A DNA stretch of 64,000 nucleotides. Source: Thioalkalivibrio sulfidiphilus HL-EbGr7 (GTDB lineage Bacteria > Pseudomonadota > Gammaproteobacteria > Ectothiorhodospirales > Ectothiorhodospiraceae). Positions 6,144 through 59,475 of this stretch are shown here, in pieces (position 1 is the first letter of the stretch; every line of letters starts with the position of its first letter). Location: positions 2,676,501 through 2,740,500 of the forward strand of contig NC_011901.1 of NCBI RefSeq assembly GCF_000021985.1. The letters are read 5' to 3'. The notes below the pieces were generated by a model. That model saw only the letters and a list, made by a program, of their open reading frames with translations, was not told the origin of the DNA and did not search any database. A program made the position numbers and the translations under genes.

Positions 6144-7346
6144 ATGAGCACGCACAACAAGCGCTGGTATCTGCGCCACCCGGTGGTAGTCATCGTGCTG
6201 GCGCAGCTGTTCGGCACCTCGCTGTGGTTCAGCGTCAACGGCGTGGCCCTGTCTCTGGAGCGCGAGACCGGGCTCACGGATGCCGGGCTGGGTCTGCTCA
6301 CCGTGGCCGTGCAGGCAGGTTTCATCACCGGCACCCTGCTGCTGGCCATCACCGGGCTGGCCGACCGCTTCCCTGCCAGCCGGCTGTTCGCCGCGGCTGC
6401 CGTGAGCGGCGCTGTCATCAATGCCGCCTTCATCCCCGTCGCCGGCGACTTCAGCCTCGCGATGGCCCTGCGCTTTGCCACCGGCCTGTGCCTGGCCGGC
6501 ATCTACCCCCTGGGCATGAAGCTGGTGGTGAGCTGGACACCCCGGCACGCGGGCCTGGCCCTGGGTTGGCTGGTGGGCATGCTCACCCTGGGCACCGCCC
6601 TGCCCCACCTGTTGCGCGGCGCCACCCTGGAACTGCCCTGGCAGGCACCGCTGCTGCTCGCCTCCCTGCTGGCCCTGTTCGCCGCCGTGATGGTGCGCGC
6701 CCTGGGCGATGGCCCGCACCTGCCCGCCACCGCCTCCGGCGGACGGCCCTGGTCCGGGCTCGCGGCATTCCGGCGCCGCCCGTTCCGTGCCGCCGCCCTG
6801 GGCTATTTCGGCCATTGCTGGGAGTTGTATGCCTTCTGGACCCTGGCGCCGCTGCTGGTATTGCGGGAACTCGGGCGTCTGGACCTTTCCCCGCAGTGGA
6901 TGCCCTGGCTGGCCTTCGGCGTCATCGGCATCGGCGCGCTGGGTTGCGTGCTGGGCGGGCGGCTAAGCCGCAGCCAGGGCAGCCTGCGCGTGGCCCGGGT
7001 CGCCCTCGGCGTGTCCGGTGCCCTGTGCCTCATCTATCCGCTGCTCGGTGAGGCCGCACCGCTCCTGCTGCTGGGTCTGCTGTTCCTCTGGGGCCTCACG
7101 GTCATCGCCGACTCCCCCCAGTTCACCACCCTCGCCTCCCTGAGCGCGCCCCGGGACCGCCTGGGTGCTGCCCTGGCCATGATGAACGCCGTGGGCTTTG
7201 CCCTCACGCTGCCGTCCATCGCGCTGGTCATGCACCTGTGGGGTGATTGGCAGCTGCTGGTGCTGTGGCTCCTGCTGCCGGGACCGGCACTGGGGATCTG
7301 GGCAATGAGCCGGGCACGGGCAGTGGATTATCAGACCCAGCGCTGA
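6144..7346 (+). CDS. Major facilitator superfamily transporter
   Basis: A 400-residue protein with about twelve membrane helices. It has a GLADRFPASRLF motif after helix 2, matching the MFS loop 2-3 signature, and GRLSRSQGSLRVAR at the equivalent point in the second half. Substrate cannot be read from sequence. The overall type resembles CynX/NimT-like or general inner-membrane exporters. Confidence 0.85.
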   Translation: MSTHNKRWYLRHPVVVIVLAQLFGTSLWFSVNGVALSLERETGLTDAGLGLLTVAVQAGFITGTLLLAITGLADRFPASRLFAAAAVSGAVINAAFIPVAGDFSLAMALRFATGLCLAGIYPLGMKLVVSWTPRHAGLALGWLVGMLTLGTALPHLLRGATLELPWQAPLLLASLLALFAAVMVRALGDGPHLPATASGGRPWSGLAAFRRRPFRAAALGYFGHCWELYAFWTLAPLLVLRELGRLDLSPQWMPWLAFGVIGIGALGCVLGGRLSRSQGSLRVARVALGVSGALCLIYPLLGEAAPLLLLGLLFLWGLTVIADSPQFTTLASLSAPRDRLGAALAMMNAVGFALTLPSIALVMHLWGDWQLLVLWLLLPGPALGIWAMSRARAVDYQTQR

Positions 7347-7350
7347 GACA

Positions 7351-7384
7351 CAAAAAAGCCCGGCCGATGCGCATCGGCCGGGCT
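7351..7384 (-). terminator. Rho-independent terminator
   Basis: A perfect 14-base palindromic stem (AGCCCGGCCGATGC / GCATCGGCCGGGCT, 7357-7384) adjoins AAAAAA at 7351-7356. Read on the minus strand this is a hairpin followed by six T, so it ends the parvulin transcript. It may also stop readthrough from the convergent MFS gene. Confidence 0.9.
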
Positions 7385-7405
7385 CGTCATGCAGGTCCTA
7401 CCGAC

Positions 7406-7687
7406 TCAATCCTGGCGGGAGGTGACCTCCAGCAGGTGATAGCCGAACTGGGTCTTCACCGGCCCCTGCACGGTGTTAACCGGCGCGGAGAACACCACCC
7501 GGTCGAACTCCGGCACCATCTGGCCGCGGCCGAAACGGCCCAGCTCACCGCCCTGCTGCCCGGAGGGGCAGGAGGAGTATTCCTTGGCCAGGGCGGCGAA
7601 ATCCTCGCCGGCCTCGATGCGGGCCTTCAGTTCATTGCAGAGTTCCTCGGAGTCCACCAGCAGGTGGCGGGCGCTTGCCATGGCCAT
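7406..7687 (-). CDS. Parvulin-type peptidyl-prolyl isomerase (PpiC-like)
   Basis: A stand-alone 93-residue parvulin domain. It starts MAMASARHLLVDSEELC and has the family motifs FAALAKEYSSCPSG, GGELGRFGRGQMVPEFD and FGYHLLEV. It catalyses cis/trans isomerisation at prolines. No signal peptide is present, so it is cytoplasmic like E. coli PpiC, whose length it matches. A strong terminator follows. Confidence 0.93.
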   Translation of the reverse strand: MAMASARHLLVDSEELCNELKARIEAGEDFAALAKEYSSCPSGQQGGELGRFGRGQMVPEFDRVVFSAPVNTVQGPVKTQFGYHLLEVTSRQD

Positions 7688-7767
7688 ATGTCTGTCCTCT
7701 ATTGATTGAATGTCCGGGGCGATTATCCCGGACCGGGGCCGCCCTGGAAACCCGCCGTTGCCCTGAC

Positions 7768-8208
7768 TCAGGGATGATTCCAGATGATCAGCGTCGCACC
7801 CGCCATCACCAGCACGCCGCCGATGGCGGCGCTGGGCGTGACATGCACCTGGCGAAACAGGAGCCAGGTGAACAGCACCACGAACAGGGGATAGGTGATC
7901 TCGATCAGGCTGGCGAGCGTCGCGTTGCGGCCGCCGATAGCCAGGAACAGCATCACCGTGGCGGCCAGGCTGGTGACCGACAGGAGCAGAATGCGCGCCC
8001 GGTCCGGCCAGTCCATGGAGGCCAGCACCAGGGCATCCCGCCACAGGGTGTCGCGAAACACCAGGGCCACCACCAGCACCGGCAGGACCGTCAGCACCAG
8101 CACCGTGACCAGGGACACGCGCTTGAGCGCATGTTCCAGCAGGGGATAGTGGATACCCCACAACAGGGCCGCGCCGAGACCGGCCGCATACCAGGGCAGT
8201 GTATTCAT
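7768..8208 (-). CDS. EamA-like small multidrug/metabolite transporter
   Basis: The 146-residue protein has about four or five membrane helices and corresponds to one EamA repeat (ALLWGIHYPLLEHALKR, then LFVVLFTWLLFRQVH). Most EamA carriers have two repeats, so this half-size form probably dimerises. Substrate unknown. The parvulin gene lies 80 bases downstream on the same strand. Confidence 0.78.
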   Translation of the reverse strand: MNTLPWYAAGLGAALLWGIHYPLLEHALKRVSLVTVLVLTVLPVLVVALVFRDTLWRDALVLASMDWPDRARILLLSVTSLAATVMLFLAIGGRNATLASLIEITYPLFVVLFTWLLFRQVHVTPSAAIGGVLVMAGATLIIWNHP

Positions 8209-8294
8209 GGTGTTGATCCTGTGCTCAGACCTGGCGGCACTATAACGAAACCGGGACCGTGCGGGAGCCCCTGCGATGAGTGCAAGAGCCTGTG

Positions 8295-8515
8295 CTCTCG
8301 CGGAGGCGCAGAGGCGCGGGGAAAAGCGCTTTGAATTTTTCCTCCGTGTCCCCGTGGCTCCGTGAGAGGACGGAGTTTTGACTTGATCCGGGAGAAAACC
8401 AATTTTCTCTCACGGAGCCACGGGGACACGGAGAGAGCCATTCAAAATAATTTCTTGGCGTCTTGGCGAGAGATCGCATTGTTTTTCTCAGCGCCTCTGC
8501 GCCTCCGCGAGAGAA
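8295..8515. repeat. Nested inverted-repeat element, copy 1
   Basis: The order is A (8295-8328, CTCTCGCGGAGGCGCAGAGG...), B (8338-8370, TCCTCCGTGTCCCCGTGGCT...), spacer, B' (8406-8438) and A' (8482-8515). A pairs with A' and B with B', so the whole 221 bases fold as a double hairpin. A motif TCTTGGCGTCTTGGCGAGAG lies between B' and A'. No reading frame is supported inside. The element occupies the whole gap between two minus-strand genes. Confidence 0.88.
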
Positions 8516-8528
8516 GAGCCTTTCCGGA

Positions 8529-8783
8529 TCAGGGCGCAGCCGGATCGAGCCATTCCAGCAGGTAGTAGAGGTACTGCCCCTCCGAGGACTTGGAGGGCCC
8601 GAGCACCTGGGCGGCGAACTGCCGGGCGGCGGGATCGGCGGCATTGAGGGCCGCCTCGGCGGATTCCATCAGTTGCACGCAGCCGGCAGGAAAGCGCTTG
8701 CGGGCACGGGCCGGCATGTACACCACCGCGTAGCGGGGCGTGGAGACGCCGGTTTCGGGATCGGGAGGGACAAGTCCGCGCAT
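8529..8783 (-). CDS. Hypothetical protein, 84 residues
   Basis: A small soluble protein starting MRGLVPPDPETGVSTPRYAV and ending LLEWLDPAAP. No domain is recognised. It is flanked on both sides by near-identical 220-base repeat copies in the same orientation. Coding is supported by normal codon use and an intact frame, but no strong ribosome site was seen. Confidence 0.55.
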   Translation of the reverse strand: MRGLVPPDPETGVSTPRYAVVYMPARARKRFPAGCVQLMESAEAALNAADPAARQFAAQVLGPSKSSEGQYLYYLLEWLDPAAP

Positions 8784-8842
8784 GGGTCGAGCCTACGGCA
8801 TCGGCGCGCGTTCGTCATCTATCTTGAACGTTGAAAGGATGA

Positions 8843-9064
8843 TTCTCTCGCGGAGGCGCGGAGGCGCAGAGAAAAGCGCTTTGAATTTTTCCTCCGTGTC
8901 CCCGTGGCTCCGTGAGAGGACGCGGTTTTGATTTGATCCGGGAGAAAACCAATTTTCTCTCACGGAGGCACGGGGTCACGGGGAGAACCATTCAAAATAA
9001 TTTCTTCGCGTCTTGGCGAAAGATCGCATTGTTTTATCAGCGCCTCTGCGCCTCCGCGAGAGAA
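8843..9064. repeat. Nested inverted-repeat element, copy 2
   Basis: This has the same A-B-spacer-B'-A' order as the copy at 8295-8515, in the same orientation and nearly base-for-base identical over most of its length. The two copies form a direct repeat around the 84-residue gene. Confidence 0.88.
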
Positions 9065-9077
9065 CAGGCTGTTGACT

Positions 9078-9623
9078 TCAGCGCCCGCCGCGCACCAGCC
9101 GCACATGATGATCCCAGTCCCGGTCGTAGCCGTCATAGGCGCCGCCGTCGCGGAACAGCACGATCCAGGCATGACGCGGGTCGCCGCGAAACGGCGTGGC
9201 GGACCAGTAGTAGCCGTCCGGGGTATCGGGAAAGAGATCCGTATCGATGGTGGGCATGGCAGAACCGGCACGGCAGCGCGCCTCCCGACCCTCGCCTTCC
9301 ATGCCCTCGGAACAGCGGATCAGACTGCGCAGCTCGTCGATCTCCGGCAGACGCCAGTCATCAAAACCGGCGTGGCTGAGGTCCTCGCCCGCGACACGGG
9401 CCGCGTCCCAGCCGTACTCGCCGAGGGCGCCGGCACAGCGCCCGTTCTCCCAGCGCTGGCCCAGACTGCATCGCATCCACATCAGCCCCGTCTGGTGATC
9501 GATCACGACGGTATCCTCCAAGCTCTGGAAACGACCCTCATCGGCCGCTGCTGCCACGCCCGGCAGCAGCGAAGTCAGCAGCAAGGCGACGAGCGCGCGA
9601 GAAGCCCGGTTGAAACAGTCCAT
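9078..9623 (-). CDS. Secreted DUF1566-domain protein
   Basis: A 181-residue protein with a signal peptide (LVALLLTSLLPGVAAA). It carries the DUF1566 pattern: DHQTGLMWMRC, then AGFDDWRLPEIDELRSLI, then GYYWSATPF. DUF1566 domains are found in secreted and surface proteins and resemble the C-type-lectin-like formylglycine-enzyme fold. Its exact role is unknown. Four cysteines in the mature part could form disulfides in the periplasm. The start at 9623 gives the best signal peptide. Confidence 0.8.
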   Translation of the reverse strand: MDCFNRASRALVALLLTSLLPGVAAAADEGRFQSLEDTVVIDHQTGLMWMRCSLGQRWENGRCAGALGEYGWDAARVAGEDLSHAGFDDWRLPEIDELRSLIRCSEGMEGEGREARCRAGSAMPTIDTDLFPDTPDGYYWSATPFRGDPRHAWIVLFRDGGAYDGYDRDWDHHVRLVRGGR

Positions 9624-51255: not shown

Positions 51256-51468
51256 CGACCCGCCTACCCCCACCAGGCCCGCTCCAGGGCCCGCCCCCAA
51301 TGGCGCTTGTTTGGTGAAGACTATAGCGCGAACAGGTCCTGAACCGCAGCAAGCAGGCCCTGCGGCACATCCCTGAAAGGCGGGTTCAGATCCGGCCTAG
51401 GACCGGACACAGGCAATGCCCCGAGCCGGGCGGAGCTCTAGACCGGGGATTCGGTAGGCAATCCGGTT

Positions 51469-52206
51469 TCAGAACCGGTAAGAGACCCCGAAGATGGCGA
51501 TGGCCCGGTGACGGTCTTCGGTCAGCGGGCTGTCGGCCACGCTGTCGCCGTAGCGGGTGCCTGCGAGTACGCCCTGGAATGACACCCGCGGTGTGATGGG
51601 CGCCACCATGCGCGCACCGTAGACCAGGTTCCAGACATCGGAGCCCGAGTAGGCGGGCCTGCCGGAGACGGCCTCGGCATCACGCACGCCGTAGTAGTAG
51701 TCCACGAGATCCGCGCTCATCCATTCCACGCCCGCGTAGGGCACGAACAGGAGGCTTCGCATGGAGCCGAACACGTAGCCCACCGTGCCCGTGACCGTCT
51801 GGCCATCGTTGCGGCCCAGGGCATCGGTGGTGGCGAGCGCGGTGTACTGCCACGGGCCCACGCGTACGGTGTGGCGCAGGCCCGCGTCCAGGGAATTGCG
51901 CCGCGAAGTCATGCCCTCCAGGAAGGGATCGTCCGTGCCCTTGAAACCGTCCAGCCGGGGACGCGCGAACAGGGTGGTGCTGTGCTGTTGCGTGTCGTAC
52001 AGGCGCACGCCGGCCTCGATGCCGCGGAAATAGACCCGCTCGCCGGAGTAGGTGATCAGGGGCACCACGAAGGGATCGCTGTCGGCGCCCTTCTGGATGG
52101 CGTCACGGGCGATGACGCCCACGCCCAATTCCCATTGGGCCTGGACCTGGGGAATGGTCAGCAGCAGGGTGAGCATCGCCCATATCAAGGTGCGTGGGTG
52201 GGTCAT
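51469..52206 (-). CDS. MipA/OmpV-family outer membrane protein
   Basis: The 245-residue protein has a signal peptide (LIWAMLTLLLTIPQVQA) and a barrel-type body with FVVPLITYSGERVYFRG and RPAYSGSDVWNLVYGARM. It ends in the aromatic FGVSYRF. MipA proteins scaffold murein enzymes, and OmpV proteins are porin-like. AAGGATC precedes the ATG. Confidence 0.9.
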   Translation of the reverse strand: MTHPRTLIWAMLTLLLTIPQVQAQWELGVGVIARDAIQKGADSDPFVVPLITYSGERVYFRGIEAGVRLYDTQQHSTTLFARPRLDGFKGTDDPFLEGMTSRRNSLDAGLRHTVRVGPWQYTALATTDALGRNDGQTVTGTVGYVFGSMRSLLFVPYAGVEWMSADLVDYYYGVRDAEAVSGRPAYSGSDVWNLVYGARMVAPITPRVSFQGVLAGTRYGDSVADSPLTEDRHRAIAIFGVSYRF

Positions 52207-52347
52207 GGTGAGATCCTTTAAGGAAGGCAGTGGCCGTCTTTGTCGACAGATTGGGCAGTCTTACCTTCCCAATGACAGTACAACGGCTGGACAGTTCAAA
52301 GGGTCCGGCCCGTCATAGCAACAACGCAGCTCCGGATCGGCCAGGGA

Positions 52348-52770
52348 TCAGTCCAGGCGTTCAGCAAAGTGCAGGCTGGTCATCTGCAGCCCCTCGCGCA
52401 GGTAGAAACGGTGGGCATCCTCGCGCTGCACGCCCGAATCCAGGTGCAGCTGGACGCAGCCCTCGCGGCGGGCCTCGGCGCGCAGCCAGGCGAGCATCCG
52501 GGTCCCGTAGCCCCGGGAACGGGCGCTCTCCAGGGTCACCAGGTCATCCACGTACAGGTGTCTCCCCCAGGCCAGGTTGTCTCCCAGGCGATAGCCGGCC
52601 ACGGTCACCACCTGGCCATCCGCCTCGAGCATGGCGAGGCGATAGCCGCCGGCCTGCTGGCGTCGCACCCGGGCGATGAAATCTTCCGGATCAAGCTGAG
52701 GGCGAAGCGCGCGCATCACCGGGTAGCAGGCGACCAGATCGGCCTCTTCGCTGGCGTGACGGATGTTCAT
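52348..52770 (-). CDS. GNAT-family N-acetyltransferase
   Basis: A 140-residue GNAT fold. LYVDDLVTLESARSRGYGTR is the acetyl-CoA-binding motif A, and LDSGVQREDAHRFYLREG is motif B. Substrate unknown. Its ATG overlaps the stop of the diguanylate cyclase gene by four bases, making it the last gene of the YeeE-TusA-GGDEF unit. Confidence 0.92.
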   Translation of the reverse strand: MNIRHASEEADLVACYPVMRALRPQLDPEDFIARVRRQQAGGYRLAMLEADGQVVTVAGYRLGDNLAWGRHLYVDDLVTLESARSRGYGTRMLAWLRAEARREGCVQLHLDSGVQREDAHRFYLREGLQMTSLHFAERLD

Positions 52771-54473
52771 GACGGGCTGCCGATGGCCCGCGTGATGACC
52801 CGGTTGCGTCCCTGGCGCTTGGCCTCGTACAGGGCGCGGTCCGCCAGGGCCATGGCCACGTCGAGCCCGAGCATGGCGGGATCGCAGTCGGCGATCCCGG
52901 CGCTCAGGGTCACGCTGAGATCCAGGCCCGTGTCGCAGTGCATGACCCGGGTACGGATGCGTTCCACGATCTCCCGGGCATGGGCCACGCTCACGTCCAC
53001 CAGCAGCAGGCCGAATTCCTCGCCGCCCAGTCGGCCCACCAGGTCGGCATCGCGCAGTTCCTTGACGAGCACGCGGCTGACCAGCTCCAGGATGCGGTCC
53101 CCCGCGGCGTGGCCGTGGGTATCGTTGACGTCCTTGAAGTGATCCAGGTCCAGCATGGCGACGACCGTGGCGTAGCCGGCGCGCCGCGAGCGGCCCAGTT
53201 CCCGCTCGGCGGCCTCGAAGAAGCTTCGCCGGTTGGCGAGCCCGGTCAGCGGGTCGGTGGTGGCCAGGTGCGCCAGCTGTTGATTGAGGGATTCCAGTGC
53301 CGCGGTCCGCTCCTGCACCCGCCGCTCCAGTTGATGCTTGGCCTCCAGCAGGCGCTCCTCGCGGTCGTCGATGCGCTCCAGCATGGTGTTCACGCCCCGG
53401 GTGATCACGTCCAGCTCCGAGACCCCGGTGGTGGGCAGGCGACGGAACTCCCCCCGGCTCACGTCGTCCAGCCGGCTGACGATCTGCAACACCGGCCGCA
53501 GCAGGCTGCGCTGCATGATCACGCGGGCCACCAGGAAGGCCAGCACCCCGAGCACCACGGCCAGCAGCAGGGCGAATCCCACCGAGCTCATCAGCAGCCG
53601 CTCCTGACCGCTGCGGTCATAGGCGACCAGGGTGATGAGACTGTCGGTCTCGGCGCCGTCCGCGTCCACCCGGCGCAGATGCTCATAGACAGCCTGGACG
53701 CCGTTGTCCTGCAGCACCACGCGACCGTGGCCTCGCAAGGCCTCCAGCACATGACTGTCGAGGCGGCGCCCTTCCCGCCACAGGGACCAGCCGCCGTACT
53801 CGGTGGCGATGAACAGGTCGAAATCCGTCACATGCCCATTGTCCGCGGTGCCCAGCCGCAGCAGGTCCCCGAACAGGAACTGGTCCATGCGCGGGCTCAC
53901 CTCGGTCTGCAGGTAGTCGCGCAGGTCCACCGCCGCCTCCAGGATGTAGTCCCGGTCACGGGGGCCGTAGTAGGCGTATTTGTACAGCCGACCGGTGTGG
54001 ATGGAGGCATTGAACCGGTCCGCGTTGATCTGGCCGCTGCCGTAGAGGCGCTCGAACATCTGTCGCATGCCCTCGCCGGCGGCCGCCAGTTCAAGGCCCA
54101 GGTCCGGCGCGAAATTGGTGGCCGCGACACGGCCCGCGCGGTCGATGAGGTAGAGGTAGGAGACCCCATGGCGCTCGCTGAGCAGATCCAGCTGCTCGGG
54201 CGTGGCGCCCAGGGGGTCATCGACCATGGCCTCGAGCTCCTCTGCCACCCGGGGCAGGATGCCCTCCAGGCGGCGGTTCAGGCCCTGCTCCTGTTCCGCA
54301 AGCAACAGGTCGAAGGCATGGAAACGATCCCGGAGCTGATCGTGCAGCCTGGAGACATGCGCATCGCTGCTGGCCACCAGCTCCCTGTACATCGACAGGG
54401 CCACCACCAGGGCCGTGCCCAGGGAGGCCAGCAGGATGGCCAGAAACAGCAGGATGCTCAGCTGACGTCGCAC
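52767..54473 (-). CDS. Membrane diguanylate cyclase
   Basis: The 568-residue protein has an N-terminal helix and a periplasmic sensor of about 270 residues with CHASE-like features (DRAGRVAATNFAPDLGLELA). A second helix (LLLAVVLGVLAFLVARVIM), a HAMP-like linker with coiled coil, and a GGDEF domain with the active motif RLGGEEFGLLL (about 478-488) complete it. It should make cyclic di-GMP in response to a periplasmic signal. Translation starts at GTG 54473, directly after the previous gene's TAA. Confidence 0.93.
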   Translation of the reverse strand: MRRQLSILLFLAILLASLGTALVVALSMYRELVASSDAHVSRLHDQLRDRFHAFDLLLAEQEQGLNRRLEGILPRVAEELEAMVDDPLGATPEQLDLLSERHGVSYLYLIDRAGRVAATNFAPDLGLELAAAGEGMRQMFERLYGSGQINADRFNASIHTGRLYKYAYYGPRDRDYILEAAVDLRDYLQTEVSPRMDQFLFGDLLRLGTADNGHVTDFDLFIATEYGGWSLWREGRRLDSHVLEALRGHGRVVLQDNGVQAVYEHLRRVDADGAETDSLITLVAYDRSGQERLLMSSVGFALLLAVVLGVLAFLVARVIMQRSLLRPVLQIVSRLDDVSRGEFRRLPTTGVSELDVITRGVNTMLERIDDREERLLEAKHQLERRVQERTAALESLNQQLAHLATTDPLTGLANRRSFFEAAERELGRSRRAGYATVVAMLDLDHFKDVNDTHGHAAGDRILELVSRVLVKELRDADLVGRLGGEEFGLLLVDVSVAHAREIVERIRTRVMHCDTGLDLSVTLSAGIADCDPAMLGLDVAMALADRALYEAKRQGRNRVITRAIGSPS

Positions 54474-56738
54474 TTACCTGCCCCCTGGAACCCTAACAGC
54501 ACTCGACGCGCTGTCCGGCGCCGCTTGCCGGACTGAATCCGCGTGTAAGCGCTCCAGCGAGACGGGGTCCAGGGGCCTGGCATAGCGATATCCCTGCAAG
54601 CGCTCACAACCGATGGCCAGCAGATAGTCTTCCTGCTCTTCGGTTTCCACGCCCTCGGCCACCGTGGCGAGCCCCAGCCGGTGGGCCATGGCGATGATGG
54701 TTTCCACGATGGCACAGTCACCGGGATCCCCCGGCACATCCTTGATGAAGGATCTGTCGATCTTGAGCATGTCGATGGGCAGCTGCTTGAGGTAGGCCAG
54801 AGACGAGTAGCCGGTGCCGAAGTCATCGATGGCGATACGCACCCCCTGCTGACGCAGGCGCAGCAGTACCCTGCGGCAGGCCTCGTAGTCCTGCATGAGC
54901 ACGTTCTCCGTCAATTCGATCTGCAGGTGTCTGCCTTCCAGACCGTGCTCGTCCAGGGCCTCGAACAATCCGTCCACGAATCCGGGGTCGAACAACTCGA
55001 TCCCCGAGGTGTTGATGGAGACGTAATCCAGCTCCATGCCCCGCTCGCGCCAGAGGCGGAACTGCCCGATGGCCGTGCGGGCCATCCACCCGCCCAGCGG
55101 CAGGATGAGCTTGGTCTCCTCGGCCAGGCGGATGAAACTGCAGGGCGCTATCTCGCCCCGCTCCGCATGCCGCCAGCGCGCCAGGGCCTCCACCGCCACC
55201 ATCCGGCCCTGTGCCAGATCGATCACCGGCTGGTAATGCACCTGCAGCTGATTTTCACGCAAGGCCTGACGCAGCGCAGTCTCCAGCGCCAGCCTTTCGT
55301 CGACGGCCTCGGCCAGGTCCTGGCTGAACTTGCAGAACCCGTCGCGCCCGAAGTCCTTGACCCGGTACATGGCGGCATCTGCATTCTTCAACAGGGTCAC
55401 CGGGTCTTCGCCGTCCTCCGGGTAAAGAGTGATACCGATGCTGCAACCGATGTGCAGTTCGGTCTCTTCCAGGAAGAAGGGCTGTCGCATGGCATGCACC
55501 AGCTTCTCGGCAAGCAACTCCGCCTCGCCGGCGTTATGAATACCCTCGACCAGCACTACGAACTCGTCACCGCCCAGGCGGGCGATGGTGTCCGACTTGC
55601 GCACCAGCCCCCGCAACCGCCTGGCCACCTGCACCAGCAGCCTGTCGCCAAGCTGATGACCCAGGCTGTCGTTGATGGTCTTGAACCGGTCCAGGTCGAT
55701 GAACAGCAGGCCGAAGTGCGCCTGGTTGCGCACCGCCCAGTCGATGGCATGCTCGAGCCGTGCCGTGAACAGCAGCCGATTGGGAAGCTCGGTGAGCGGG
55801 TCGTGGTGGGCCAGAAAGTCCAACCGGCTCTGGGTCTCCTTGATGGACGAGATATCGGTGACGATGGTGATGTAGTGACTCACCGCGCCCTGGGTGTCGC
55901 GCACCACGCTGATGGTCTGCAGCAAGGGAATGACGCGGCCGTCACGGGTACGATCCAGGATCTCGCCCCGCCAGTGTCCCCGGACCTCCAGCGTCTTGCT
56001 GATATCCGCATAGAAGGCCGCATCATGATGGCCTGACTTGAGCATGCGAGGCGTCCGGCCCAGGAGTTCCCCGTCGCTGTACCCGGTGATCCGGCAGTAG
56101 GCCTCGTTGACCTGCAGAAAACGCATTCTGCTGTCGGTGATGGCGATCCCTTCCGCCGTGCTCTCGAAGACCTTGCCATACAGACCAAGGCTTGCCTCCG
56201 TCTTCTTCTGTTGCGTGACGTCGAAACAGATGACCACCTTCTTGATGCTGTTCTGATGGGCGTCGGTGATATCGGAGACGATGATCTGAAGATGACGGCC
56301 GTCCACCTCTATCGTCTGTCCACGCCCCCTGCCCGACATCACCTGCTGCTGTATTTCCCTGTCGCAGGGACACAATTCCGCCAGCGGTCTTCCGATCAGC
56401 ATCTGGGCATCCAGATCTCCGAACAGCCACTCCCGGGCCTGCCGGTTGCAATCATCGATGCTGCCATCGTGGTTGACCACCACGACGGCGGCATCCATGG
56501 AATCGAAAATGGCCCGGATCTCCTGACGCGCCACATCGAGTTTCTGATTGGTGTCATGGAGGTGGGAGAGGATCTGCCCGAAGGCATCGCTGACGATGCC
56601 GATGGGATCCAGGTCGATGAGGGTGCGATCATCCAGCTCTTCAGGGCGCAGCGGCAGGGTGCCGATCAGGGTCAGCATCTGATCGATCTTGGCCCGGATA
56701 TAGGTGATCGCCTTGTAGTACTCCGACTGGTAGTCCAT
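54474..56738 (-). CDS. PAS-PAS-GGDEF-EAL protein
   Basis: A 754-residue cytosolic protein. PAS 1 is at about 85-195 (IFDSMDAAVVVVNHDGSIDD), PAS 2 at about 200-310, GGDEF at about 325-480 with intact ARLGGDEFVVLVEG, and EAL at about 500-740 with AVEALARWRH, ELTENVLMQ and DDFGTGYSSLAYLKQ. Both catalytic signatures are intact, so it could make or degrade cyclic di-GMP. It starts 16 bases after tusA. A GTG at 56744 with better ribosome spacing is an alternative start. Confidence 0.95.
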   Translation of the reverse strand: MDYQSEYYKAITYIRAKIDQMLTLIGTLPLRPEELDDRTLIDLDPIGIVSDAFGQILSHLHDTNQKLDVARQEIRAIFDSMDAAVVVVNHDGSIDDCNRQAREWLFGDLDAQMLIGRPLAELCPCDREIQQQVMSGRGRGQTIEVDGRHLQIIVSDITDAHQNSIKKVVICFDVTQQKKTEASLGLYGKVFESTAEGIAITDSRMRFLQVNEAYCRITGYSDGELLGRTPRMLKSGHHDAAFYADISKTLEVRGHWRGEILDRTRDGRVIPLLQTISVVRDTQGAVSHYITIVTDISSIKETQSRLDFLAHHDPLTELPNRLLFTARLEHAIDWAVRNQAHFGLLFIDLDRFKTINDSLGHQLGDRLLVQVARRLRGLVRKSDTIARLGGDEFVVLVEGIHNAGEAELLAEKLVHAMRQPFFLEETELHIGCSIGITLYPEDGEDPVTLLKNADAAMYRVKDFGRDGFCKFSQDLAEAVDERLALETALRQALRENQLQVHYQPVIDLAQGRMVAVEALARWRHAERGEIAPCSFIRLAEETKLILPLGGWMARTAIGQFRLWRERGMELDYVSINTSGIELFDPGFVDGLFEALDEHGLEGRHLQIELTENVLMQDYEACRRVLLRLRQQGVRIAIDDFGTGYSSLAYLKQLPIDMLKIDRSFIKDVPGDPGDCAIVETIIAMAHRLGLATVAEGVETEEQEDYLLAIGCERLQGYRYARPLDPVSLERLHADSVRQAAPDSASSAVRVPGGR

Positions 56739-56754
56739 TCCCACGCCGCTCACC

Positions 56755-57009
56755 TTAAACCGCTCCACGCAGGCAGATCCGGTAGCCTTCCGGGATGTGT
56801 GTCACTTCCGCGATGTAGCCCATCTTGTCCACGGCGGCGGGAATAGTACTGGTGGCCTGCCGGTCGTCGGTGATCACGACGATCTCCAGGCTGCCGCTGC
56901 GTACCGCCTCGCCGTATCGGTTGAGCTCCTTCAGGGCCAACAACAGACAGGAGGGACAGATCTGCCCCCTGATATCAAGCACGACATTGTCCTGTGCACG
57001 CTCGGCCAT
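56755..57009 (-). CDS. TusA/SirA-like sulfur carrier with CPSC motif
   Basis: An 84-residue TusA-fold protein (NVVLDIRGQICPSCLLLALK, later TIPAAVDKMGYIAEV). TusA proteins carry persulfide sulfur on the first cysteine of CPxP. Here the motif is CPSC, with a second cysteine replacing the proline. Its ATG overlaps the YeeE stop (TGATG), matching the usual pairing of YeeE transporters with a TusA partner. Without correcting the upstream frameshift it would read as a fusion to YeeE. Confidence 0.82.
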   Translation of the reverse strand: MAERAQDNVVLDIRGQICPSCLLLALKELNRYGEAVRSGSLEIVVITDDRQATSTIPAAVDKMGYIAEVTHIPEGYRICLRGAV

Positions 57010-58122
57010 CAGCGAATCACTACCCTGGACAGCAGCCTGCTGCCAATCCACGCCCCCGGCACCAGGCCGAGCAGAAACAGCAGACTCTGCATGGGCCAGT
57101 ATGGGAACCCCGCCCCACAGATGCCAGATGTTGCACCCCGGGACCATGCGCGAGGCGGCGCCCAGCAGAATCCCTCCCAACAGGGCCGAGGCATACTGGC
57201 GGGCGGGGATGCGATAGCGCAAGCGCCACTCGCCCACACTCAGGGCGGAGGCGGCGGCCCCCAGGACGATACCGGCGATCAGCGGATACTGGATGGCGGC
57301 AATGGCATCCAGCTGCGGGCCCGCCCCGCCCTGCACCGCAGAGTCCGCGAACGGCGGGGTGTAGTTCAGCCCCTGCGCCTGGAAGAAGGCGAGACTGGAG
57401 ACCCGTTCGGGCAGCACCAGGGATTCCAGGGTGGCGCCAAGCTTTGCGTAGGAGGTGGTGATACCCAGGGGCATGCCGATCACATACCAGGAGATGAGGC
57501 CCAGGGCCGCCAGCACCAGGGCCGCCTGCCAGGGCGCGATGTGGCCCCGGGCAAAGGCCGGCCGGCTGAGCAGACCAAGATGCTGGCATCGCACCAGGTA
57601 GACCAGCCCGAGCAGGGCCAGGGGCAGGATCAGATAGCCGGGCTGCAGACCCAACAGTTGCGGCAGGGTGACCGCCGAATGCAGCATCGTGGAGCGCGCC
57701 AGGTCACTCCACCAGGGATGCCATTCGGCGTAGAGCGCGGAGCCGACCAGCAGGCCCACGAAGGCGACCGCGGCCACCACGCTGCCCGCCCCCAGCTTGT
57801 AGAGGGTCCCCACGACGCAGCCACCCGCCAGGACCATGCCGATGCCAAACAGCACGCCAGCCACCAAAGTGGTCAGTGAAGCGGGACCCAGGAGCGGGAA
57901 GGGATAGGGGGTAAGCTGTCCGCCAAGGCGGGCAAGCTCGAAGGCGAACATGCTCACCACCACCAGCAGCACGAGCATGCGCAGCAGGAACCGGTCATTC
58001 ACCAGGAACAGGTCACGGAACATGGCCGTGACACAGAAATCGGAACGATGCATCACGAAACCGGCGACCAGGCCGATCACAGCCGAGGTGACGATGATCA
58101 GTGTGTAAGGGGATTCACCCAT
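57009..58122 (-). pseudogene. YeeE/YedE sulfur transporter with single-base frameshift
   Basis: A membrane protein of about 370 residues. The family cysteines show in MHRSDFCVTAMFRDLF, VLAGGCVVGTLYKLGAGS and MVPGCNIWHLWGG, as in YeeE/TsuA thiosulfate channels. At two G4 runs (57108-57116) the frame should change. Dropping one G gives the natural last helix FPYWPMQSLLFLLGLVPGAW and a stop at 57009. As written, the frame enters a hydrophilic linker and runs into TusA. The span is 371 codons plus one base. It is the first gene of a five-gene unit. Confidence 0.8.
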
Positions 58123-58372
58123 GCAGTTCCATACCCGTCGGTCCCTCGCGCACTTCCGTATGAGATCTATCACGGACTCGCCGACTGTCCAGGTCATCGC
58201 GGCTGTCGTGAATGACTGGGGCCAGATACCATGGGTAATCCCCGGACAGTGGCCTCAATCGCACACGATAACCGCACTCCGCGATGGGATATGGCCCGCC
58301 TGTCGGGGATTCTCAGCCGCTGAGCCCGACAGCGCCAGGTGTCGGGAATGTTCGGTGAACCCTGCGCGTCCG
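58123..58372. other. Leader of the YeeE operon with hairpin
   Basis: No gene was seen. A hairpin CTGTCGGG...CTCAG / CTGAG.CCCGACAG spans about 58300-58332. This stretch must hold the promoter of the YeeE unit, but no confident -35/-10 pair was identified. Confidence 0.5.
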
Positions 58373-58617
58373 GGGCGAGTTGGGACACCCATCATCCTGG
58401 ACCTCAATCCAGCCGGGGCGAGTTGGGACACCCATCATCCTGGACCTCAATCCAGCAGAACCTCATCACCCACGCGCACGCGGCCTGCCAGACGGAACCT
58501 CATCGGGGCGAGTTGGGACACCCATCATCCGGGCGAGTTGGGACACCCATCATCCTGAGACGGGCGAGTTGGGACACCCATCATCCTGAGACGGGCGAGT
58601 TGGGACACCCATCATCC
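58373..58617. repeat. Six copies of a 25-bp direct repeat
   Basis: The unit beginning GGGCGAGTTGGGACACCC occurs unchanged at 58373-58397, 58416-58440, 58506-58530, 58531-58555, 58562-58586 and 58593-58617. Copy spacing is irregular (0 to 65 bases between copies). Between copies 2 and 3 lies a 50-base duplicate of the 3' end of the MOSC gene (58441-58496 versus 58618-58671). Confidence 0.9.
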
Positions 58618-58623
58618 TGGACC

Positions 58624-59475
58624 TCAATCCAGCAGAACCTCATCACCCACGCGCACGCGGCCTGCCAGACGGGTCTCCCCGTACACGCCCACGTTCTGAT
58701 CCGCCTCCCGGACAACCGTGCGCAGGATGGCGGTGTCGGCGTCGAAATCGGCCTGGGCGCGGGTGATGGCGCCGCAACGGGGCGTGGTGCCGACACACTC
58801 CAGGCTCACATCCCCGATGCGCAGCCGCCGGCCGATCCAGTCCTGCTCCACCAGGCCCTCCAGCCCGGGTTCGGTCTCGATGAGGACATTGGGGCGAAAG
58901 CGTCGCCTGTCCCAGTCTGCGCCGGGATGGAGCCCTTTGAGGTGCCTGAGCGAGGCGGTGGTGAGCAGGTGCAGGGTGGTGACCACGAAGAAGCTGCCGG
59001 GCACCGAGACGTGATCCACCAGGGGTTCGGGGAGCTGGTCCAGGGCCGGCAGCGGTTCGCCCGGCTCGCGCTCGAAGGTGGCCGCCAGTTCCTCGAGCCA
59101 GCTGTGCGCGTCGGGCTTGTAGCGCCGGTAGAAGGCACTGTCCGAGGCGGGTCTCAGGGCCTGCAGGGTGGACGCACGGCCCACCAGGGCCGAGAGGCGC
59201 TCGTCGATCTCCGCGCTGTCGCTGCCCAGCACCGAGCCGTCGGGAAAACGCACCTCAACCTCACCGCCTCCCCCGGGGCGACAGCGTGCCGAGCAGCGCA
59301 GCAGGTCCGGACGGGTCTTGCAGCTCTGCACCTCCTCACGCGCCTCGTCGCGCAGGGCCCAGATCCGGTCACCCTCCAGACCCCGCTCGCCCAGGGCGCA
59401 GTCCTCGAGCCGCTCCCCCGCCATGCCCTTGACCGGGTAACGCCAGATTTCACCGATCCTGCCCACCTTGATCAT
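58624..59475 (-). CDS. MOSC-domain protein
   Basis: The 283-residue protein has an N-terminal MOSC_N beta-barrel (IGEIWRYPVKGMAGERLEDC) and a C-terminal MOSC domain (RRFRPNVLIET, CGAITRAQ). The cysteine in TPRCGAI matches the molybdenum-binding position of mARC-type enzymes. Relatives reduce N-hydroxylated compounds or carry sulfur. GGGGAG precedes the ATG. Its 3' end is duplicated inside the adjoining repeat cluster. Confidence 0.88.
   Translation of the reverse strand: MIKVGRIGEIWRYPVKGMAGERLEDCALGERGLEGDRIWALRDEAREEVQSCKTRPDLLRCSARCRPGGGGEVEVRFPDGSVLGSDSAEIDERLSALVGRASTLQALRPASDSAFYRRYKPDAHSWLEELAATFEREPGEPLPALDQLPEPLVDHVSVPGSFFVVTTLHLLTTASLRHLKGLHPGADWDRRRFRPNVLIETEPGLEGLVEQDWIGRRLRIGDVSLECVGTTPRCGAITRAQADFDADTAILRTVVREADQNVGVYGETRLAGRVRVGDEVLLD

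Follow-up and report, generated by a model that had tools for sequence, protein, structure and literature searches.

Gene organization of the yeeE-tusA-sensor locus

The stretch of DNA analysed here (the window) comprises 64,000 nucleotides of the Thioalkalivibrio sulfidiphilus HL-EbGr7 genome (contig NC_011901.1, positions 2,676,501 to 2,740,500; the source genome is a single contig of 3,464,554 bases). Its minus strand carries genes for a YeeE-type membrane sulfur transporter, a TusA-like sulfur carrier and a cytoplasmic PAS-type sensor, followed by genes for a membrane GGDEF protein and a GNAT acetyltransferase (Table 1). This gene order had been named in a first-pass annotation, and Pfam searches bore it out by assigning YeeE, TusA, PAS/PAS/GGDEF/EAL, HAMP-GGDEF and acetyltransferase domains to the successive products. 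The same annotation regarded the five genes as one compact unit, and the junctions are indeed tight (-4 to +1 bases). One base is common to the stop of yeeE and the start of tusA (TGATG, 57011-57007), the tusA stop at 56755 and the sensor start GTG 56753 are separated by +1 (they would overlap if GTG 56768 were the start), the sensor stop at 54474 and the start of the GGDEF protein gene at 54473 adjoin with 0 bases, and the latter gene overlaps the GNAT gene by 4 bases. However, YeeE and TusA are not cleanly separate in this assembly, since they were listed as one joined open reading frame (ORF) of 480 residues. Alignment with the sister strain suggests GTG 56753 rather than GTG 56768 as the sensor start. 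Among the proteins tested, membrane-type hydrophobic segments were found in the GGDEF protein and in the YeeE portion of the joined ORF, and none in the sensor or the GNAT protein. A scan of 51400-58900 for sigma-70-type promoters was empty, where chance alone would give 0.9, a result with little bearing on whether the genes have separate promoters.

Table 1. Features of the locus in the T. sulfidiphilus HL-EbGr7 window (window coordinates)
Feature	Position	Strand	Basis and remarks
yeeE, YeeE/YedE-family membrane sulfur transporter (Sulf_transp)	57009..58122	-	ATG 58122, original-frame stop 57011-57009; frame broken near 3' end; PF04143 E 1.4e-43
Extra-base site, CCC vs CC	57093..57095	-	DNA alignment with two congeners and ORF listing
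tusA-like sulfur carrier, 84 residues, CPSC replacing CPxP	56755..57009	-	PF01206 E 1.3e-9 in joined ORF; alignment A4
Cytoplasmic sensor: N-terminal domain, PAS, PAS, GGDEF, EAL	54474..56753	-	Pfam; alignment with ALJ17 and ALJD
Sensor N-terminal domain without a name, ~78 residues before first PAS	56469..56732	-	Alignment A6; helical in model
Sensor first PAS, C133 and C135 (LCPCD)	56217..56495	-	Model pLDDT 78, PAS matches in PDB
Sensor GGDEF and EAL output domains	54573..55811	-	PF00990 E 1.5e-50, PF00563 E 6.2e-74
Membrane HAMP-GGDEF protein, accessory	52767..54473	-	PF00672, PF00990
GNAT acetyltransferase, accessory	52348..52770	-	PF00583 E 3.1e-13

The joined ORF results from a frame break. 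DNA alignment with T. sulfidiphilus ALJ17 and T. denitrificans ALJD, the nearest relatives with the locus and members of the same genus, revealed that the window yeeE contains one C more than both congeners (CCC at 57095-57093 vs CC). Owing to this extra C, the YeeE frame continues into TusA, and the final YeeE helix falls into a different frame (ORF 57009-57239). The gene is intact in ALJ17 (a 408-residue ORF, or 370 residues counted from the MDDSP start) and in ALJD (370 residues), and all 17 relatives in the YeeE alignment (A5) are continuous across the site at the protein level. The extra C may be either a sequencing or assembly error or a real mutation. A true YeeE-TusA fusion, as in Corynebacterium, was rejected because the joined frame does not include the last YeeE helix.

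Conservation of the core module

The yeeE-tusA-sensor set is a conserved core module. A scan with the YeeE alignment, covering one genome per species (GTDB 220), yielded 18 loci, 17 of them full relatives; the other (L054, 39 residues matched) was left out. According to the record titles, the hosts are Thioalkalivibrio, Gammaproteobacteria, Rhodocyclaceae, Thiobacillaceae, Sulfuritalea, Gallionellaceae, Burkholderiales, Desulfobulbaceae, Desulfuromonadales, and one metagenome-assembled genome (MAG) each of Deltaproteobacteria and Myxococcota. YeeE is followed by TusA and by a sensor bearing the N-terminal domain in 16 of these 17 named relatives; the contig of the 17th stops after YeeE, and the domain lies at the edge of a different contig of that genome. 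Each of the 17 genomes holds one clear copy of the domain, with a second match (E 9.7e-4) in one of them. The first-pass annotation had proposed neighbourhood comparison as a check on its pairing of sulfur import with signalling, to be abandoned if no linkage was conserved; linkage is conserved for the first three genes, although the five-gene set is not the conserved unit.

Searching whole genomes with a profile of the domain detected it in 3 of 369 genomes of the window class and 1 of 398 of the window phylum (the window genome itself). It was far more frequent in the classes of two other hosts, with 89 of 244 genomes in the class of G793 (the Desulfuromonadales MAG with locus L050) and 34 of 242 in that of G790 (the Desulfobulbaceae MAG with L047); L050, L051 and L047, which belong to G793, G794 and G790, recur in these class samples. 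The Myxococcota MAG (L042) was the single positive among 235 genomes of its phylum and may not prove spread to Myxococcota, as contamination or transfer is possible. The window-class trio includes one genome with the full core (G160) and one with a variant (G159). In G159 (L076:5784-9358), the domain follows two split YeeE-like halves, PmpB/PmpA-like by their lengths and by names used in the available text of PMC11582611, with no TusA match seen at this locus; the G159 sensor is spread over two reading frames (7132-7623 and 7634-9358).

The G793 class provided 95 places of the domain. YeeE and TusA lie just upstream on the same strand in 85, a permuted pair lies just downstream in three, and the rest comprise one place with TusA only, two contig ends and four with neither, so that the domain stands beside the pair in 88 of 95. 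These places include a weak 23-bit match (L170, one of the four with neither) and count twice one sensor gene of G798 that is split over two contigs (L157, L168). The distance from the TusA stop to the first aligned codon of the domain ranges from 28 to 175 bases (86 loci). The reverse search gave the same picture: YeeE of this type (E up to 1e-70) was found in 84 genomes, all 84 with the domain and all among the 89. Of 90 YeeE places, 85 have the domain less than 3.5 kb away, every one on the same strand. Among the five places away from it, G846 has a second YeeE copy without the domain, and the other four are partial matches or come from genomes in which YeeE or the domain breaks off at or near a contig end. 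Mostly only 8 candidates were scored per genome in this search, and the YeeE counts may thus be low. In the G790 class, 30 of 38 places were examined, with YeeE and TusA upstream in 26, TusA only in two (one with 526 bases upstream), a contig end in one and neither in one. As a control, 27 loci of other YeeE types, taken from relatives of the window genome (mostly one family) with 1.5 kb on each side, contained the domain in 0, TusA in 2 and GGDEF in 1. The Fisher value for the domain/YeeE linkage in the reverse search (4.6e-60) ignores kinship and is not to be taken at face value. Stronger support comes from the range of lineages in which the linkage occurs, from the permutation of the gene order, and from G159, where the domain stands beside split YeeE halves.

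At L166, L169, L171 and L172, a gene whose product starts with IRVYYEDTDAxGVVYHANY or a similar sequence lies upstream of the sensor or TusA; it looks like a YbgC-type thioesterase.

N-terminal domain of the sensors

The N-terminal stretch is the part common to the sensors. It shows the motif YIRxKxDQxLxxxGTxPLxPEELDDxTLIxLDPIGI, and 17 aligned rows (A6) have 20 invariant columns, including Y11, R13, K15, G24, E32-L33-D34, L38-I39 and D42-P-I-G-I46. The stretch is kept even in L052, which is without the first PAS. The L052 protein (L052:9351-11627) joins the N-terminal domain directly to one PAS, followed by GGDEF, EAL and chemoreceptor zinc-binding (CZB) domains. Database searches placed the domain in no described family: five examples met no Pfam family over the cut-off (best E 0.039), four gave weak matches only in NCBIfam (best E 0.0049, 17 bits of 47), and a PDB sequence search returned nothing real (best E 0.59).

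A model built from a single sequence was discarded owing to a predicted local distance difference test score (pLDDT) of 43. The model from 16 sequences (A7) reached pLDDT 78 with a predicted template modelling score (pTM) of 0.56; it has a helix at residues 2-22, a loop with a short helix at 35-40 and a long helix at 43-78 that runs into the PAS fold. The modelled PAS part matches WalK, CitA, FixL, DosP and PA0861 in structure. All 16 rows of A7 have a Cys at C133 in this first PAS, and at least one Cys occurs within residues 96-135 in 92 of 95 scorable proteins, at a varying position. A C-x3/4-C-x7-9-C pattern is present in the first PAS of 56 of the 95 scorable sensors (mostly L071-L173) and is possibly a metal or iron-sulfur site.

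Features of YeeE and TusA

The window YeeE belongs to the Sulf_transp family, with a PF04143 score of 150 bits vs a cut-off of 27, and three Cys columns (C26, C98 and C326) are invariant in the 17 relatives of A5, in line with the three conserved cysteines of long family members; they may correspond to those of TsuA. Curated models describe the pair less well. ALJ17 YeeE scored 124.7 of 400 and 70.3 of 645 bits against TsuA models, and the ALJ17 TusA-like protein scored 12.1 of 147.5 bits against the TsuB/YeeD model, all far under the cut-offs. The YeeE proteins also matched the model of the selenium transporter YedE/FdhT (E 1.3e-29 and 1.4e-32), and the ALJ17 TusA-like protein gave a slight match to YedF (E 1.1e-4), again under the curated cut-offs. 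At a threshold of 0.001, the TusA profile retrieved no real match from the PDB sequences.

The TusA-like partners are marked by an altered motif. TusA-family proteins are described with CPxP in the available text of PMC11073785. Of the 17 partners in the named loci (A4), 16 have CPSC and one has CPST. The 89 partners from the G793 class have CPST (41), CPSS (20), CPSA (8), CPAT (7), CPAC (7), CPSC (4) and CPAS (2), and the 28 from the G790 class CPAC (13), CPST (8), CPSC (4), CPAT (2) and CPSS (1). CPxP is thus found in 0/17, 0/89 and 0/28 (134 rows, three genes being counted twice). Two of the other TusA-like proteins of the window genome carry CPHP and CPKP. No natural fusion of TusA with the N-terminal domain was seen in 99 loci scanned, TusA being found in 90 of them.

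Exchange of the output domains

The sensor output differs between loci. Among the 16 named loci, the sensor is PAS-GGDEF-EAL in 13 and a histidine kinase in three (L046, L050, L051). The 74 complete sensors of the G793 class, a count that leaves out 20 sensors cut by locus or contig ends as well as L170, comprise 38 histidine kinases, 4 kinases with a receiver, 19 GGDEF-EAL proteins and 13 without an output domain, and kinase parts occur within 1.5 kb in 28 of 30 G790-class loci. The first-pass annotation had tied the pairing to cyclic-di-GMP (c-di-GMP) enzymes; such specificity does not hold, as many relatives have a histidine kinase or no output domain. On a FastTree tree of YeeE (99 rows, 92 labelled, with L050/L071 and L051/L072 as duplicates and several long branches such as L127 and L122), the output class changes at least 8 times.

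The output-less sensors are mostly of ~300 residues, with the N-terminal domain and two PAS domains, although L081 and L130, counted among the 13, may be broken genes. Proteins of this length without an output domain were found at L095, L098, L104, L120, L136, L140, L142, L145, L149, L166 and L169, and Pfam confirmed PAS domains in L098, L140 and L169. Such proteins may act directly on TusA or YeeE.

All 49 of the 49 GGDEF proteins that were scanned have an intact GGDEF motif. RLGGDEF and VEAL are both readable in the aligned window sensor, which is predicted to be a diguanylate cyclase/phosphodiesterase with intact motifs.

Proposed mechanism and alternatives

A sulfur signal would be the most economical reason for the linkage between import and signalling. 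The reading that we favour, and consider reasonably probable, is that the sensor is coupled to the transporter and signals the arrival of imported sulfur by way of TusA. YeeE would bring reduced sulfur, be it thiosulfate, polysulfide or another sulfane-sulfur species, across the membrane, and the TusA-like carrier would take up the sulfur at the inner face on the Cys of CPx[C/T/S/A]. The N-terminal domain of the sensor would then distinguish loaded from unloaded TusA, possibly with a handover of sulfur to a Cys of the first PAS, and the state of TusA would set the output, namely c-di-GMP turnover in T. sulfidiphilus and histidine kinase activity elsewhere. The gene linkage, the common domain, the swapped outputs and the altered TusA motif are direct observations, from which we infer the substrate, the docking of TusA on the domain, a persulfide as the signal and the direction of the response. 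Because the place of the PAS Cys varies and some proteins are without it, sulfur transfer to this residue would be a guess rather than a requirement of the scheme.

Several findings weigh against this reading. The window yeeE is itself frame-broken, and linkage inside one class is partly a matter of inheritance. Second copies of the domain occur without YeeE or TusA (L143, L165), as does one lone copy (L169), with the reservation that the L165 contig ends just past the sensor and would not show a pair lying downstream. In NCBIfam, YeeE and the TusA-like protein come closest not only to TsuA but also to the selenium-related YedE and YedF, all far under cut-off. The PAS Cys is not universal, given L052 without the first PAS and 3 of 95 scorable proteins without Cys in 96-135 (one of them the doubtful L170). 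Finally, among 35 EAL-domain proteins, a crude first-match pattern read plain EAL in 26, different letters in 4 and no motif in 5.

One alternative, compatible with a sensor reporting through TusA, is that the whole five-gene set acts as one functional unit including the membrane GGDEF and GNAT proteins. The junctions of 0 and -4 bases and the retention of the set in ALJ17 are consistent with this possibility, as is L041, where a different, membrane-type dCache-GGDEF gene follows the core. However, the five-gene unit was seen only in the window and in ALJ17, the GGDEF protein and GNAT genes follow the core at 1 of 16 loci (L037; L038 and L042 end less than 400 bases past the sensor), and of 40 relatives only 2, the window genome and ALJ17, gave a match (E up to 1e-20) to the sensor part of this GGDEF protein, the other 38 giving none. 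The two genes are local additions, and a functional unit of five appears rather doubtful. Upstream of the core, between a MOSC gene and yeeE, the window contains at 58370-58619 a tandem array of a 31-43 base unit (GGGCGAGTTGGGACACCCATCATCCT...); judged by eye, the end of the MOSC gene is repeated within the array as well.

Information could also flow in the reverse direction, the sensor reading a redox state, ligand or cofactor via PAS and controlling import by YeeE-TusA, for example with the N-terminal domain holding TusA off YeeE. The structural matches of the PAS part include the gas sensors FixL and DosP, and the ~300-residue proteins without output keep precisely the N-terminal domain and PAS, as would be expected if the domain acted on TusA or YeeE. 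A pure transport gate would nevertheless have no need of the GGDEF-EAL or kinase outputs present in 61 of the 74 complete G793-class proteins, nor of a GGDEF motif intact in every protein scanned, and reverse flow is judged unlikely.

A system for selenium (selenite or selenide) in place of sulfur would fit the slight YedF match and the YedE/FdhT model, which YeeE matches about as well as TsuA. All these scores are, however, far under the curated cut-offs, and the named hosts include Thioalkalivibrio, Thiobacillaceae, Sulfuritalea and Desulfobulbaceae, which are groups of sulfur metabolism; a selenium system is quite improbable. The least probable alternative, very unlikely in our judgement, is bulk sulfur import for energy metabolism with the signalling gene as a co-transcribed passenger of inherited gene order: YeeE-TusA pairs do occur in metabolic settings, as described in the available texts for TsuA-TsuB (PMC11073785) and for YTD with DsrEFH type II (PMC13293266), and YeeE-like SoxT1A serves bulk import (PMC11582611), but the linkage is kept in the window class and two sampled delta-type classes while outputs were exchanged repeatedly and the order permuted in three loci, and a domain common only to the linked sensors is unexpected for a passenger.

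Relationship to known systems

The nearest known system in function is SoxT1B-SoxR of Hyphomicrobium denitrificans. According to PMC11582611, the YeeE-family protein SoxT1B acts as SoxR's signal unit, and TusA is the proposed go-between; YeeE-TusA pairs also lie beside soxSRT genes. As in the present module, the gene for the YeeE-type transporter adjoins that for its cytoplasmic regulator. The receivers differ: SoxR is a transcriptional repressor, whereas here it is a PAS protein with the N-terminal domain and a c-di-GMP or kinase output, the third gene encoding a PAS-type or N-terminal-domain signalling protein, not SoxR, in all 16 loci with a third gene. TsuA-TsuB (YeeE-YeeD) resembles the module in that YeeE and a TusA-like partner are neighbours, and they form a single polypeptide in some Corynebacterium; YeeD binds YeeE, and the YeeD Cys is modified by thiosulfate (PMC11073785, as far as its accessible text goes). 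TsuB has CPxP in that account, in contrast to CPSC or CP[SA][TSAC] here; the model scores are far under cut-off, and the joined ORF of the window is a frame break.

YeeE and TusA also stand together in sulfur bacteria in the YTD/DsrEFH type II setting, as outlined in the available parts of PMC13293266, PMC13047784 and PMC8780430. The partners there are DsrE-type sulfur transferases, whereas in the present module the sensor directly follows tusA (16 named loci and 85 of 95 places of the G793 class); this comparison is one of gene context and not of YeeE sequence. SqrR of Rhodobacter capsulatus is a persulfide-responsive regulator that likewise affects c-di-GMP, although it acts by transcription on GGDEF-EAL genes and, in the accessible text of PMC9143464, without a transporter. 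As for the output, DibA is the best NCBIfam match (646 bits vs a cut-off of 980) and shares the PAS-GGDEF-EAL arrangement, but the match starts at residue 162, leaving the N-terminal domain outside. DosP and PA0861, which were matched by the modelled PAS part, are PAS-GGDEF-EAL enzymes as well.

Among the open PMC papers listed in the searches, no description of YeeE-TusA with this sensor domain was found and no title hinted at such a module, and YeeE, TusA and GGDEF were not found together in any paper; PMC8542988 mentions YeeE and TusA one time each. The module appears to be transporter-coupled sulfur signalling in a new form, working by a mechanism that we infer. A broader proposal, advanced tentatively and at somewhat below even likelihood, is that these loci represent an undescribed modular system of sulfur oxidisers and of sulfur- or sulfate-reducing lineages, in which a dedicated non-CPxP TusA would be loaded by YeeE and a new small receiver domain would drive any output fused to it.

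The sensing of extracellular sulfur by regulators is poorly understood, as stated in the available text of PMC11582611. If the favoured reading is true, one small domain would mark sensors that read a sulfur importer, and, depending on the lineage, would tie sulfur supply either to c-di-GMP or to two-component control. The domain provides a sequence handle for finding such sensors, and TusA together with its ~78 residues constitutes a small pair that could be tested in vitro. The swapped outputs on a constant core suggest a plug-in system that informs the cell of imported sulfur.

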